DNA from: Dolichospermum flos-aquae CCAP 1403/13F
Lineage (GTDB): Bacteria > Cyanobacteriota > Cyanobacteriia > Cyanobacteriales > Nostocaceae
NCBI RefSeq assembly: GCF_012516395.1
Contig: NZ_CP051206.1
Location: 4,593,334-4,657,333 of the forward strand
Direction: 5' to 3'
Length of the DNA: 64,000 nucleotides
Part shown: piece by piece, positions 36,866 to 41,845 of the stretch
Layout: each line of letters opens with the position of its first letter
Numbering within the stretch: position 1 is the stretch's first letter
The notes under the pieces: model-generated
Databases searched by the model: none
Seen by the model: the letters and a program-made list of their open reading frames with translations, nothing else
What the model was told of the DNA's origin: nothing
Position numbers and translations under genes: made by a program

Positions 36866-37843
36866 TCAACCACCGCCACCACCGCCACCACCGCCACCGC
36901 CACCACCGCCGCCACCACCGCCACCACTTTCACTAATTACTGGAATTACTTCTTCAAATTCGTTATGATATGAGCAGTTTTGGCAGAGGTGGGTTACTAT
37001 TTGCTTTCCTTGAAAGCTAGTAGTTGCCGGAACTAATATTTTATAATTCCGTTTCAGCGTAAATTTTTGACATTGGGGACATTTTCGATCATTGATTGGC
37101 GAAACTATAACAAAGGCAATGTATGCGAAAAAGCACAGAAATATAAAGTTATTCCAATTCAAAACAAAGCTACCTTGTTGCCAATTGGGTTGAGGAATAT
37201 TCAGAATTTCGCTAGGGAATGTCACCTGAACTTCTAGTTCTTGTTGCGGTGTAATAGGCTGATTTGCTACAAATTCAAATGTTTTCGGATTTACTTGACG
37301 GCTTGTAGCTGGTATACCAAAATTTTGGAAATCTTGGACTTTACCTGATAAAATTTCTGGTAATTGTACCTGAACTTTTGCCGATTGAATTGGGGCTTTA
37401 CGGTCAGCGAAAATGGCTTTCCAATAAACTTGAGTATTCTCATTATTAATATGCAGTCCGCCAACTACACGATATTTCAAAACAAAAGTATGTGTTTCTG
37501 GTGGTTTTAATTGATGTTGCCAACGAATCCAAAATTGATTATTTTCAATTCCGGTTTCACTAGGAATAATTTGATTATTTTCTTGAATCGTTACATCCTT
37601 AATTTCATCAACTTTATCTAAAGGAATATAGCGATATCGTTGATTAGGATAATCTGATTTGAACACATATTTTTGCGTTTCAGTGACTAACATATCTCCG
37701 TTAGTTTGCACATCAATATCAACATTGATATAGTCCCAATAAAATGGTACTTCCTGTGCAACAGCATGAGTAAATGTAATCAAAACAGTCACCAACATAG
37801 CAAGTAATGAAAAAGAGATTCTTCTCATTAATAGTTTATTCAT
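36866..37843 (-). CDS. DUF2207-type membrane protein with polyglycine tail
   Basis: 325 aa. A signal peptide (about 1-29) is followed by a DUF2207-like extracytoplasmic domain (FYWDYINVDIDVQTNGDMLV, the RYIPL and WRWQ-like pattern, LKYRVVGGLHI), one membrane helix at about 228-248 (FIFLCFFAYIAFVIVSPI), and a cytoplasmic CxxC...CxxC zinc ribbon (CPQC, CQNC). It ends in about 19 consecutive glycines encoded by an ACC/GCC microsatellite. DUF2207 proteins often have glycine-rich ends, but their function is unknown. Confidence 0.8.
   Translation of the reverse strand: MNKLLMRRISFSLLAMLVTVLITFTHAVAQEVPFYWDYINVDIDVQTNGDMLVTETQKYVFKSDYPNQRYRYIPLDKVDEIKDVTIQENNQIIPSETGIENNQFWIRWQHQLKPPETHTFVLKYRVVGGLHINNENTQVYWKAIFADRKAPIQSAKVQVQLPEILSGKVQDFQNFGIPATSRQVNPKTFEFVANQPITPQQELEVQVTFPSEILNIPQPNWQQGSFVLNWNNFIFLCFFAYIAFVIVSPINDRKCPQCQKFTLKRNYKILVPATTSFQGKQIVTHLCQNCSYHNEFEEVIPVISESGGGGGGGGGGGGGGGGGGG
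36869..36925. repeat. trinucleotide microsatellite coding polyglycine
   Basis: Nineteen consecutive ACC or GCC triplets (GGT/GGC on the coding strand) sit immediately before the stop codon. Copy number is likely to vary between strains by slippage without loss of frame. Confidence 0.9.
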
Positions 37844-38422: not shown

Positions 38423-38539
38423 TAATTAGTAGATTGTAACCAAGTTTGTAAATCTGTAACTGAAGTAAAATCTAACAAGGCTTCTCCTAATTCCTCTAGT
38501 TGTTCAACAGGTAATTTTTGAACCAAATATATATAAATA
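38423..38539 (-). pseudogene. C-terminal fragment of a DUF4351/Rpn-type protein
   Basis: The minus-strand frame reads LVQKLPVEQLEELGEALLDF followed by TSVTDLQTWLQSTN and a stop, the usual C-terminus of this family. It is cut off at its 5' side by the palindrome at 38540-38568. It lies upstream, in transcription order, of the N-terminal fragment, so the pieces are rearranged or come from two genes. Confidence 0.55.
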
Positions 38540-38568
38540 GGGTGCGTTACCGACAGCGTAACGCACCC
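38540..38568. repeat. palindrome GGGTGCGTTAC...GTAACGCACCC
   Basis: A perfect 11-bp stem with a 7-base centre. It shares GGTGCGTTA/TAACGCACC with the hairpin at 32345-32371 and marks the break point of the DUF4351 fragment. Confidence 0.7.
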
Positions 38569-38712
38569 TGAACTTGATTAATGGATAAATCCTTGTATCC
38601 GTGTTTTAATTTAAGCTATGCCTCAGTATAATATAGATGCAGTCTTTGTCTTTTTTTTTACAAAGGTTAAACATAGTTTAACAAAAACTCCCATATCTCG
38701 TCTGTTTATGCC

Positions 38713-38883
38713 AAAAAAAACAACCGCCTCCGTGATGGTAAGCGGTTCTGCACAATTGAATAGACATCTCCAAAAAAGTAGAGACGTTCCATGGAACGTC
38801 TCTACTACAAGGGTTTGATGTCAAGCATCTTTAAACTCGGTCTATGGCTATTAAATAGAATTTGAAGATAGTTCTTCCTTATC
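38713..38883 (-). ncRNA. candidate small RNA gene with tandem terminators
   Basis: The minus strand has a near-consensus promoter at 38918-38890 (separate entry), predicting a start near 38883. The transcript would contain small stem-loops (GAAGA/TCTTC, CTAT/ATAG, GATG/CATC), then a 14-bp perfect palindrome at 38805-38778 followed by six T, then a second hairpin AACCGC/GCGGTT at 38747-38722 followed by G and eight T. Two good terminators with no upstream protein gene indicate an RNA of about 110 or 170 nt. A frame MRLIRKNYLQILFNSHRPSL starts inside the -10 box and so is unlikely to be translated. I do not recognise a known cyanobacterial sRNA. Confidence 0.55.
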
Positions 38884-38889
38884 AATCTC

Positions 38890-38918
38890 ATGATAACAAA
38901 TTTAAAATCAATTGTCAA
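38890..38918 (-). promoter_or_regulatory. near-consensus sigma-70 promoter (minus strand)
   Basis: TTGACA (38918-38913), a 17-bp spacer, then TATCAT (38895-38890). This is the best -35/-10 match I found in the intergenic regions, and it faces away from glgP. Confidence 0.65.
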
Positions 38919-39088
38919 CCCCCCAATACCTATTATCGCCGGACAAAATCAAAAAGTTTTCAATTCTTCATAAAGTCATGAAACCATCATAAACAGAGTA
39001 TAAAGAGTTGGCAAGATTAGGTAAAAACAGACAACAATAACTTTATGGCAGTTATCGGGGTATTGTTTAGTAAATTATTTAGTATATC

Positions 39089-41653
39089 ATGCAGCCAATT
39101 CGCACTTTTAACGTTTCTCCTTCACTACCATCCAGACTAGAACCCCTGCGGAAACTAGCCTATAATCTCCATTTTGATTGGAATGTGGAGAGCAAAGACC
39201 TGTTTCGTCGTTTAGATCCTGATTTATGGGAATCTACCCACCATAATCCAGTATTGATGCTGGGAACTATTAGTCAAAGCCGACTATTAGAAGTTGTTGA
39301 AGATGAAGGCTTTTTAGCGCAAGTAGACCGAGCAGCGCGGCAGTTAGAAGATTATTTGCAGGAATACACTTGGTATAAGAAACAAAGAAATCAGCATCAG
39401 AAGGAATGTTACGCCTATTTTTCTGCTGAATTTGGGTTAGTAGATTGCTTACCTGTATATTCAGGTGGTTTGGGTGTACTCGCAGGAGATCACCTTAAAT
39501 CTGCGAGTGATTTAGGATTACCTTTGGTGGGTGTGGGTTTATTATATCAACAAGGCTACTTTGCCCAGTATCTTAATGCTGATGGTTGGCAGCAAGAACG
39601 CTACCTCATCAATGATTTCTATAATATGCCCTTGCATTTGGAACGGAATCCCGATGGTACAGAACTACGGATTGCGGTAGATTATCCCGGACGCAAGGTA
39701 TATGCGCGGGTGTGGCGTGTTCAGGTGGGAACTGTACCCCTGTATATGCTCGATACTAATATTGAGCCTAACAAGGCTTATGACCACGATATCACCGATC
39801 AGTTGTATGGTGGTGATATAGATATGCGTATCCACCAAGAAATTATGCTGGGCATAGGTGGTGTGCAAATGCTGAAAGCCTTGGGGTATGAAGTCACTGC
39901 TTACCACATGAATGAAGGTCATGCAGCTTTCTCTGCTTTAGAACGCATTCGCACTCTCATTCAGGAAAAAGGACTGAGTTACAGAGAAGCTAGACAAGTA
40001 GTATCTTCTAGTAATATCTTCACTACGCATACTCCAGTCCCCGCAGGGATTGACTTATTTGCCCCCGATAAGATCTTGCATTATCTGGGTTACTATGCAG
40101 ATATCTTTGGTTTACCGAAAGAGCAGTTTTTAGGCTTGGGACGAGAAAATACTGGTGATTTGTCCAGTCCCTTCAGTATGGCGGTATTAGCCCTGAAAAT
40201 GGCGACGTTCTCCAATGGTGTGGCACAATTGCACGGTGTTGTTTCCCGGCAAATGTTCCAAGGTTTGTGGCAAAAAGTTCCAGTGGAAGACGTACCAATT
40301 GCCGCTATTACTAACGGTGTCCATGCCCGCAGTTGTGTAAGTAAATCTACGCAAGAGTTATACGATCGCTATCTTGGTCCAAATTGGTCATCAGCACCAC
40401 CGGATAACCAATTGTGGGAACGCATGGATGCAATTCCTGATGAAGAGTTATGGCGGAATCACGAACGCTGCCGCTTGGATATGGTATTGTATGTTCGAGA
40501 ACATTTAGTTAAACACTTGCGCGATCGCGGTGCTTCAGCTTCGGATATTGCCCAAGCCCAGGAAGTGCTTGATCCTAACGTTCTCACTATTGGCTTTGCC
40601 CGTCGCTTTGCTACCTACAAACGCGCTACTTTATGGATGCGTGATTTGGAACGAATTAAGCGGATTTTACTCGCTAACAAACACCGCAAAGTGCAGTTTG
40701 TGATTGCGGGGAAAGCCCACCCCAAAGATATCCCTGGTAAGGAATTAATTCGGGATATTAACCACTTTATCCGCGAACACCATTTAGAAAAACAAGTGGT
40801 GTTTGTACCTAACTACGATATTCACATCGCCCGCTTAATGGTAGCAGGTTGTGATATCTGGTTAAATACTCCCCGTCGTCCTAGAGAAGCTTCTGGAACA
40901 AGTGGCATGAAAGCTGCTATGAATGGTTTACCAAATCTCAGTGTTCTTGATGGTTGGTGGGATGAAGCGGACTATGTTCGCACAGGTTGGGCAATAGGAC
41001 ATGGTGAAAACTATGATGATCCTAATTACCAAGATGAAATAGAAGCTAACGCCCTCTATGAGTTGTTAGAAAAGGAAGTTATTCCCCTATTCTATGATCA
41101 TCGTGATGGTGATGGTTTGCCTCGTCCTTGGGTAGCAAAAATGAAAGATGCGATTCGGTTGAATTGTCCTTTCTTTAATACAGCCCGGATGGTGCGAGAA
41201 TATGCAATGAGAGCTTATTTCCCGGCGAGCGATCGCTATCATACCCTCACCGTTGATAATTATGCTCCCGCTAAGGAATTAGCGGCTTGGAGAGCAAAAT
41301 TAGGTGAACACTGGTTTAGCATCAAAATCAAGGATATTGACGTATCCGCAGCATCAGATATTGAAGTTAATCAAACTGTAGCCGTCAAAGCTAAGGTTAA
41401 TTTAGCAACTTTGAGCAATGATGATGTCCAAGTAGAACTATATCAAGGTTCTATTGATGCCAATGGTGATATTGTCAATGCTGTACCTGTGGTAATGGAT
41501 TACCAAGGACAAGATCCAGAAAATTCAAGTGTTTATACCGCAAATATCACTTACACCACTTCTGGTTTGCAAGGTTTATCTTTGCGTGTCTTACCTCGAA
41601 ATCAATACCTTTCTAGTCCTTATGAACCCAGGTTAATCGCTTGGGCTGAATAA
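39089..41653 (+). CDS. glgP: alpha-glucan (glycogen) phosphorylase
   Basis: 854 aa, GT35 short-type phosphorylase. The N-terminal DUF3417 segment (RKLAYNLHFDWNVESKDLFR) is followed by FSAEFGLVDCLPVYSGGLGV, the YHMNEGHAAFSALER motif and the pyridoxal-phosphate lysine in EASGTSGMKAAMNG. It releases glucose-1-phosphate from glycogen for night metabolism and heterocyst supply. The start lacks a strong Shine-Dalgarno. A candidate small RNA gene is divergently placed about 170 bp upstream. Confidence 0.96.
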   Translation: MQPIRTFNVSPSLPSRLEPLRKLAYNLHFDWNVESKDLFRRLDPDLWESTHHNPVLMLGTISQSRLLEVVEDEGFLAQVDRAARQLEDYLQEYTWYKKQRNQHQKECYAYFSAEFGLVDCLPVYSGGLGVLAGDHLKSASDLGLPLVGVGLLYQQGYFAQYLNADGWQQERYLINDFYNMPLHLERNPDGTELRIAVDYPGRKVYARVWRVQVGTVPLYMLDTNIEPNKAYDHDITDQLYGGDIDMRIHQEIMLGIGGVQMLKALGYEVTAYHMNEGHAAFSALERIRTLIQEKGLSYREARQVVSSSNIFTTHTPVPAGIDLFAPDKILHYLGYYADIFGLPKEQFLGLGRENTGDLSSPFSMAVLALKMATFSNGVAQLHGVVSRQMFQGLWQKVPVEDVPIAAITNGVHARSCVSKSTQELYDRYLGPNWSSAPPDNQLWERMDAIPDEELWRNHERCRLDMVLYVREHLVKHLRDRGASASDIAQAQEVLDPNVLTIGFARRFATYKRATLWMRDLERIKRILLANKHRKVQFVIAGKAHPKDIPGKELIRDINHFIREHHLEKQVVFVPNYDIHIARLMVAGCDIWLNTPRRPREASGTSGMKAAMNGLPNLSVLDGWWDEADYVRTGWAIGHGENYDDPNYQDEIEANALYELLEKEVIPLFYDHRDGDGLPRPWVAKMKDAIRLNCPFFNTARMVREYAMRAYFPASDRYHTLTVDNYAPAKELAAWRAKLGEHWFSIKIKDIDVSAASDIEVNQTVAVKAKVNLATLSNDDVQVELYQGSIDANGDIVNAVPVVMDYQGQDPENSSVYTANITYTTSGLQGLSLRVLPRNQYLSSPYEPRLIAWAE

Positions 41654-41661
41654 GCAAATAA

Positions 41662-41689
41662 TGTAGAGACGTTATATGAAACGTCTCTA
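41662..41689. repeat. palindrome GTAGAGACGT...ACGTCTCTAC after glgP
   Basis: A 10-bp perfect stem with an 8-base loop, 9 bp after the glgP stop. The same arms occur at 38778-38805 in the candidate small RNA. It may act as a transcript end here. Confidence 0.7.
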
Positions 41690-41845
41690 CAACAATTGTT
41701 AAATTCGGGTAATATTTACAGCGATTTTCAGATCAATGAACTACAGTTTTTGTTTCGCGCAGAGGCGCAAAGTAGGAAAGGCGCAAAGGAAGAAAGTAAT
41801 CAGAGTGTGGTTTAAATCGCCGAAAACTGCTGTAATCAAAAATCT

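Follow-up and report, generated by a model that had tools for sequence, protein, structure and literature searches.

The DNA divergent from the glgP-type phosphorylase gene, read on the minus strand, is rather probably a stand-alone gene of a multicopy small RNA (sRNA) family whose members would act through a shared 5' end. The window (the whole 64,000-nucleotide stretch of DNA analyzed here) contains at this locus a candidate sRNA predicted to combine a strong promoter of the housekeeping type, a near-invariant 17-nt start, an A/U-rich variable body and an intrinsic terminator. The family, defined by the promoter together with RNA positions +1..+17 (GAYRAGGAAGAACUAUC), is by sequence comparison dispersed, intergenic and amplified in the Dolichospermum/Anabaena/Aphanizomenon group. 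We favor the sRNA family because of the promoter and terminators at the glgP locus, the orthologs of this arrangement in two genera, the presence of 21 copies in the genome, the conservation of the core, the intergenic placement of the copies, a single-copy form found in g4 genomes and covariation in the terminator stem.

Promoter, predicted transcript and terminators at the glgP locus

An earlier reading of the stretch made without database searches (the sequence-only reading) had described a promoter with a 17-nt spacer on the minus strand, no protein gene between it and two successive terminators, and a start near 38883. TTGACA (38918-38913) and TATCAT (38895-38890) are indeed present at that spacing, together with an extended -10 TG, and the start predicted from the promoter position is the same (Table 1). 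This promoter ranks top among the promoter-like sites in the 6 kb scanned, with 11 of 12 matches. The minus strand contains no open reading frame (ORF) of 60 or more aa between promoter and terminators, and the plus-strand 66-aa ORF overlapping the locus (38618-38818) is probably spurious. The DUF2207 protein encoded farther along the minus strand (36866-37843) has a long glycine run at its end.

Table 1. Features of the glgP-divergent locus and its surroundings, in window coordinates.
Feature	Position	Strand	Basis or remark
UP-like A-rich stretch (about -58 to -49)	38932..38941	-	Degenerate in the window copy; A at -54 to -50 conserved over 206 rows; alignment A3
-35 box TTGACA	38913..38918	-	Exact in 183/206 rows; unchanged in 24 ortholog groups except position -30 at 0.01
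Extended -10 TGTTATCAT	38890..38898	-	T-15, G-14, T-12, A-11 and T-7 near invariant
Discriminator, -6 to -1 (GAGATT)	38884..38889	-	Hypervariable between orthologs
Conserved RNA +1..+17, GATAAGGAAGAACTATC	38867..38883	-	Start 38883; 21 motif copies in genome
Predicted full-length sRNA, 171 nt	38713..38883	-	Inferred from promoter and terminators; 112 nt if terminator 1 acts
94-bp insertion with 9-bp terminal inverted repeats	38759..38852	-	Absent in L008 and L018; gap in L227
Terminator 1, palindrome within the insertion, T run to about 38772	38777..38806	-	13 pairs in hairpin scan
Terminator 2, AACCGC/GCGGTT and T8, putative ancestral RNA end	38713..38747	-	Stem common to 24 aligned canonical copies
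glgP-type phosphorylase gene, divergent neighbor	39089..41653	+	Pfam Phosphorylase and DUF3417
Second palindrome copy, 3' of glgP	41663..41690		Palindrome search of window
DUF2207 protein gene	36866..37843	-	Next same-strand ORF of at least 60 aa, about 870 bp past the RNA end

Both terminator-like hairpins lie on the minus strand in succession, each followed by a T run, as had been described. In the first, the palindrome GTAGAGACGTTCC/GGAACGTCTCTAC (38778-38805) precedes the T run; the same palindrome occurs twice in the window, where none is expected by chance, its second copy (41663-41690) lying after glgP as the sequence-only reading had noted. The second, AACCGC/GCGGTT (38722-38747) followed by G and T8, was read directly, its loop being too long for the hairpin scan. 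The predicted 171-nt RNA has a fold z-score of -5.7, and the segment 38883-38772 folds at -31.4 kcal/mol (z -4.4). The short ortholog lacking the 94-bp insertion (L008) folds no better than shuffled sequences (z -0.9), which counts against an sRNA. The small stem-loops proposed to precede the terminators found no support as conserved elements, RNAalifold on aligned family copies recovering the terminator stem only. Rfam models gave no match at gathering score within the 64-kb window, and a search of 38650-39000 relaxed to E up to 10 returned five weak rows at chance level.

A 271-base query spanning the locus found matches of 246-269 bases and 91-93% identity in five relatives and a shorter match in a sixth; two of these genomes contain a second copy, and many genomes gave partial matches. 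The partial matches fall into two families, one covering query positions of about 22-112 (promoter and RNA start) and the other about 109-206 (hairpin element). The promoter and second terminator, whose absence from close relatives the sequence-only reading had said would speak against its proposal, are both kept, together with the 17-nt RNA start, divergent from glgP in G014 (locus L008) and in G048 (L018), which belongs to a different genus. An sRNA gene divergent from glgP is hence supported by the retention of its putative signals in two genera, but the designation does not suit every copy of the family. In a scan of 30 glgP loci at up to 4 motif mismatches (13 loci aligned; G048 outside that set), the element was located within about 1.5 kb upstream of glgP in five (G000, G002, G011, G014 and, in degenerate form, G008), and G003, G007, G009 and G015 carry a copy about 3 kb upstream. 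Element copies near glgP flank or adjoin a gene for a DUF4351 protein (L337 2847-3770, L338 483-1430, L039 1608-2543), and DUF4351-like proteins precede the copies at G000 4936575 and 5127956.

The second terminator is present in the window and in L002, L003, L005, L006, L008 and L018; the 94-bp block is present in the window, L002, L003, L005 and L006 and missing in L008 and L018. Since the block is absent from the G014 and G048 loci, terminator 1 appears to have come with an inserted inverted-repeat element, and the ancestral RNA would have been about 75-80 nt long. The RNA predicted in these two genomes consists of the 5' motif, some 30 A/U-rich bases, AAAACCGC..GCGGTT (GGTGGT in G048) and T-rich sequence. 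At the window locus, the insertion would make the RNA 112 nt long, or 171 nt where transcription reads through. The insertion resembles a transposable MITE in having both terminal inverted repeats and an empty site (L008, L018). Its two ends in the window are AATAGCCAT and ATGTCTATT; the end facing ATGTCTATT reads AATAGACAT in L002 and L003 and AATAGATAT in L005 and L006, and the window repeat is one mismatch from AATAGACAT. One further genomic place (L336) shows perfect inverted repeats and a related palindrome, and positions 127-206 of the 271-base query have dispersed matches in relatives. The earlier suggestion that a mobile hairpin created a shortened RNA form fits these observations, since the insertion that carries the hairpin is a dispersed inverted-repeat element missing from L008 and L018. 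Another palindrome, AGGGTGCGTTAC..GTAACGCACCCT, occupies 38539-38569 of the window, and in relatives several family copies have a related GGGTGTGTTA..TAACGCACC palindrome downstream.

A dispersed family of promoters with a common RNA start

The sequence-only reading, whose sRNA interpretation is partly supported, overlooked the multicopy nature of the promoter and initial 17 RNA bases, which have 21 copies in the genome. Promoter and motif together, at up to 3 mismatches, occur at 18 places (0 in the reversed control), and the motif GANNAGGAAGAACTATC, at up to one mismatch, at 22 places (2 in the reversed control). One of the latter is a coding region without a promoter, leaving 21 copies; the -35 box is TTGACA in 19 of them and TTGACT, displaced by one base, in another, and the last copy has no box. 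A profile search placed 21 copies in this genome among the best 22 candidates scored. Using one fixed pattern, which recovers 19 of the 21 copies in this genome, 8-44 copies per genome were counted across the 16 genomes available for the genus, numbers being lower in related genera; of 100 relatives, 29 had at least one copy. When the phylum was sampled evenly, matches came from 23 of 386 genomes, none of them outside the order, and the profile search recovered the family in 62 of 192 genomes and 23 of 56 genera of the taxonomic family. A scan of named genomes yielded at least 119 stretches; among the matches listed, all are cyanobacterial (Dolichospermum, Anabaena, Aphanizomenon, Cuspidothrix, Trichormus, Nodularia, Sphaerospermopsis, Cylindrospermum, Scytonema, Hassallia and Plectonema) except one acidobacterial match (L114), which lacks the promoter and was rejected as a chance hit. 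The family has so far been found only in Nostocales-type cyanobacteria. Plasmids, phages and viral contigs (the last searched with one exact pattern only) contained no family match, and an origin from a phage, plasmid or virus was discarded on that account. The literature searched, which lies mostly outside subscription papers, contains no description of a family combining this promoter and 17-mer, and the family is apparently undescribed so far.

The copies lie predominantly between genes, with 147 of 151 outside mechanically called ORFs, whereas 67% of random points fall inside ORFs. Their orientation relative to neighboring genes is like that of random intergenic points (87 same-strand and 57 convergent copies vs 575 and 393 points). 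In this genome, copies adjoin genes for Hsp70 (dnaK), orotidine decarboxylase (pyrF), an FtsH-type protease, a 2-oxoacid dehydrogenase acyltransferase and alanine racemase, among others. When 94 of 236 listed neighbor proteins were compared with 94 of 108 control proteins, duplicates being left out, no family among the 25 commonest listed exceeded 5 of 94, as in the control, and a clear association with a neighbor gene family was rejected. Tandem arrays occur at L063, L037, L044, L040, L115 and L137, mostly as units of 100-220 bp, some wider, each with its own promoter. At L065 (G000:C1:1040580) and L199 (index 4515), similarity breaks off either within the promoter or where the RNA begins, and the normal -35 box is absent.

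Termination varies across the family. A strict terminator was found within +200 in 38 of 234 copies, as compared to 30 of 234 in the antisense control and 8 of 217 in the upstream control. Because the terminator counts are near the antisense control, most copies appear to have no obvious end, and an intrinsic terminator is claimed for the glgP locus and a canonical class only, rather than for all copies. This canonical class, with an ACCGC..GCGGT terminator, comprises 16 copies; an alignment of 24 canonical copies, the window not among them, recovers the terminator stem only, with compensatory changes at two pairs. In each of seven matching g4 genomes (8-10 Mb, a Nostoc-like size; further g4 genomes may be non-matching), the family is represented by a single copy, which has a strong AAACCGCTTGC..GCAAGCGGTTTT terminator. 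Shared downstream DNA shows that these seven copies, like L075 (g28) and L092 (g29), all point to the 3' end of one gene, identified as DUF1517 in L315. The single-copy g4 form with its terminator, together with the terminator stem, suggests that a short RNA gene is likely the ancestral state and that promoter-only copies are likely derived.

Conservation of the core and rapid change at the start region

Across 206 aligned rows, the conserved columns are -35..-30, T-15, G-14, -13..-10 (TTAT), T-7 and +1..+17, with an A-rich stretch near -54 and an RNA body that becomes nearly random at +30. Because copies were identified through the +1..+17 columns, the conservation level of these columns is partly circular; the promoter contributed through a loose joint score alone. 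The conserved unit ends near +29, and the downstream sequences of most copies are unrelated. Six of the 206 rows have a poor promoter; L114, L148 and the second L095 match were judged false, and the remaining three stayed in the set as damaged or uncertain copies. L114 and L148 are absent from the ortholog groups discussed below. The profile alignment A2 contains 58 of 70 references and the window (59 rows), and A3 (56 rows) is A2 minus L148, L095 and, in error, the genuine copy L119.

In 24 ortholog groups with both flanks matched, the -35 box and +1..+17 are 98-99% identical, compared with 88-92% for the flanks. The 26 core sites accumulated 5 changes against 51 expected from the flanks (one pair per group, 23 groups; P about 2e-16), a result favored by the groups having been found through the motif, with decayed copies under-represented. 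This deficit of changes in the core indicates that the copies compared at orthologous loci are under purifying selection where they sit. Positions -9, -8 and -6..-1, in turn, show 51 changes against 15.7 expected from the flanks (P about 1e-12), where the -6..-1 segment was preset, -9 and -8 were included post hoc, and the flanks are partly coding and hence constrained, which inflates the ratio. The start region also outpaces +18..+29, with 51 changes at 8 sites vs 35 at 12 sites (P 4e-4), and identity between orthologs over -6..-1 is 63.6%. The discriminator and inner -10 (window 38884-38892) thus change about three times faster than the flanks in a promoter that is otherwise near frozen. The hypervariable sites coincide with the region melted in the open complex, and the pairing of a fast discriminator with a near-frozen promoter constitutes a natural experiment on mutation or selection in the transcription bubble.

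Possible roles of the shared 5' end and competing explanations

From sequence, the candidate has the own promoter expected of a trans-encoded bacterial sRNA gene. As members of such a family, the RNAs would be made constitutively and would act in trans via the shared, unpaired 5' end, which may be a base-pairing seed or a tag bound by a protein or the ribosome, the variable 3' part supplying the RNA ending. Several specific roles for the 17-mer were tried and rejected. Duplexes of the 5' motif with the 16S 3' tail and with the Yfr1 core were equaled by 95 to 493 of 1000 shuffled motifs, so neither is favored as a partner. A 5' hairpin (GATA/TATC) pairs in 95.5% of cells, but without covariation and with C-A mismatches, and an alternative stem (GAAGA/UCUUC) is paired in 73.6%, again without covariation. 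A mini-ORF starting at +15 was dismissed, the excess of stops being equal in two frames (early stops, out of 165: frame 0, 96; frame 1, 99). The 5' 17-mer is predicted to be linear by these tests, and a shared 5' seed or binding tag is our best guess for its role.

The main rival explanation is a promoter module with incidental RNA. Putative mobile promoters, dispersed near-identical promoter sequences in one genome, are known, and the family could be a dispersing module of promoter and leader in which the strong promoter and 17 bp are selected or selfish and the transcripts differ from copy to copy; some copies would have become sRNA genes, and others would transcribe neighboring genes or produce RNA antisense to convergent genes. 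The end of the conserved unit near +29, with mostly unrelated sequence beyond, the random-like orientation, the tandem arrays and the scarcity of clear terminators all agree with such a module. So do copies immediately 5' of genes: two copies in this genome directly precede genes for an O-methyltransferase (at +42) and a Uma2 protein (at +45), which speaks against an sRNA there, and a transport permease gene begins 27-34 nt after the copy at L310, L316, L325 and L329 (genera g10, g13 and g22; Pfam on one), where the motif is an mRNA leader. A mere promoter, however, has no need of +1..+17, which is as invariant as the -35 box. In addition, each of the seven g4 genomes has, as its single copy, a complete short RNA gene ending in a terminator, the near-unchanged core persists at orthologous sites, unlike in young mobile repeats, and a mobilizing gene is not apparent among the neighbor families. 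The module is therefore a possible but rather doubtful account of the family.

The sRNA family and the spread of its start can also be combined in a more speculative form, which we think unlikely: in bloom-forming Nostocales, a self-amplifying start module would give dozens of RNAs, unrelated in other respects, one 17-nt 5' tag, forming a network (sponge or seed), with the melted region of these very strong promoters as a mutational or diversifying hotspot. If so, the start region should change quickly in each copy, and the core and tag should remain frozen.

Less probable still, +1..+17 could be a cis signal for DNA or RNA polymerase (an operator, a promoter-escape sequence or a 5' stabilizer), the RNA having no trans function. 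In this genome the motif is practically confined to sites behind this promoter (a -35 box, displaced by one base in one case, precedes 20 of the 21 copies), and AAGGA, which is Shine-Dalgarno-like, lies within nine bases of the 5' end; ribosome-bound 5' ends can act as transcript stabilizers. The most invariant part (AGGAAGAAC), however, is asymmetric and not operator-like, and neither the 16S-tail duplex nor the mini-ORF described above gave a signal. Promoter-like matches are common in the 6 kb scanned (31 vs 19.9 expected), but a chance resemblance to promoter and terminators in AT-rich intergenic DNA is scarcely credible, being refuted by family-wide conservation along with the copy number and retention at orthologous sites.

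Among known systems, putative mobile promoters differ from the family, whose copies are retained at orthologous sites and whose +1..+17 segment is conserved as strongly as the promoter. RybB/OmrA-type sRNAs have a 5'-terminal seed, with the first 15-17 nt most conserved, and they are present in one or two copies rather than 8-44. Yfr2 (RF01701, Cyano-1) is likewise a multicopy cyanobacterial sRNA family at unconserved loci (PMC6778093). Its sequence is different, however; the two RF01701 matches of the genome lie elsewhere, with none in the window at gathering score or in the relaxed E-value search of 38650-39000. Yfr10 resembles the family in having a short conserved unpaired motif in otherwise variable RNAs (PMC6778093). 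The Yfr1 motif CACUCCUCACACC (PMC4734099) differs from the 17-mer, and its duplex with the 17-mer is not clearly above shuffles. The same source reports 327 predicted sRNAs in PCC 7120, near-identical ones being grouped into families (PMC4734099). NsiR1 of heterocystous cyanobacteria is similarly a short RNA from tandem repeats in Nostocales, some family copies being tandem; it is described as 12 repeats upstream of hetF (PMC3610870), whereas most family copies are scattered next to genes that have nothing in common. The family is unusual among known multicopy sRNA families in combining 8-44 dispersed copies per genome with a common RNA 5' end and 3' parts that are free to vary, and in its host group of bloom-forming cyanobacteria it makes it possible to test directly if many non-coding RNAs are linked by a 5' tag.
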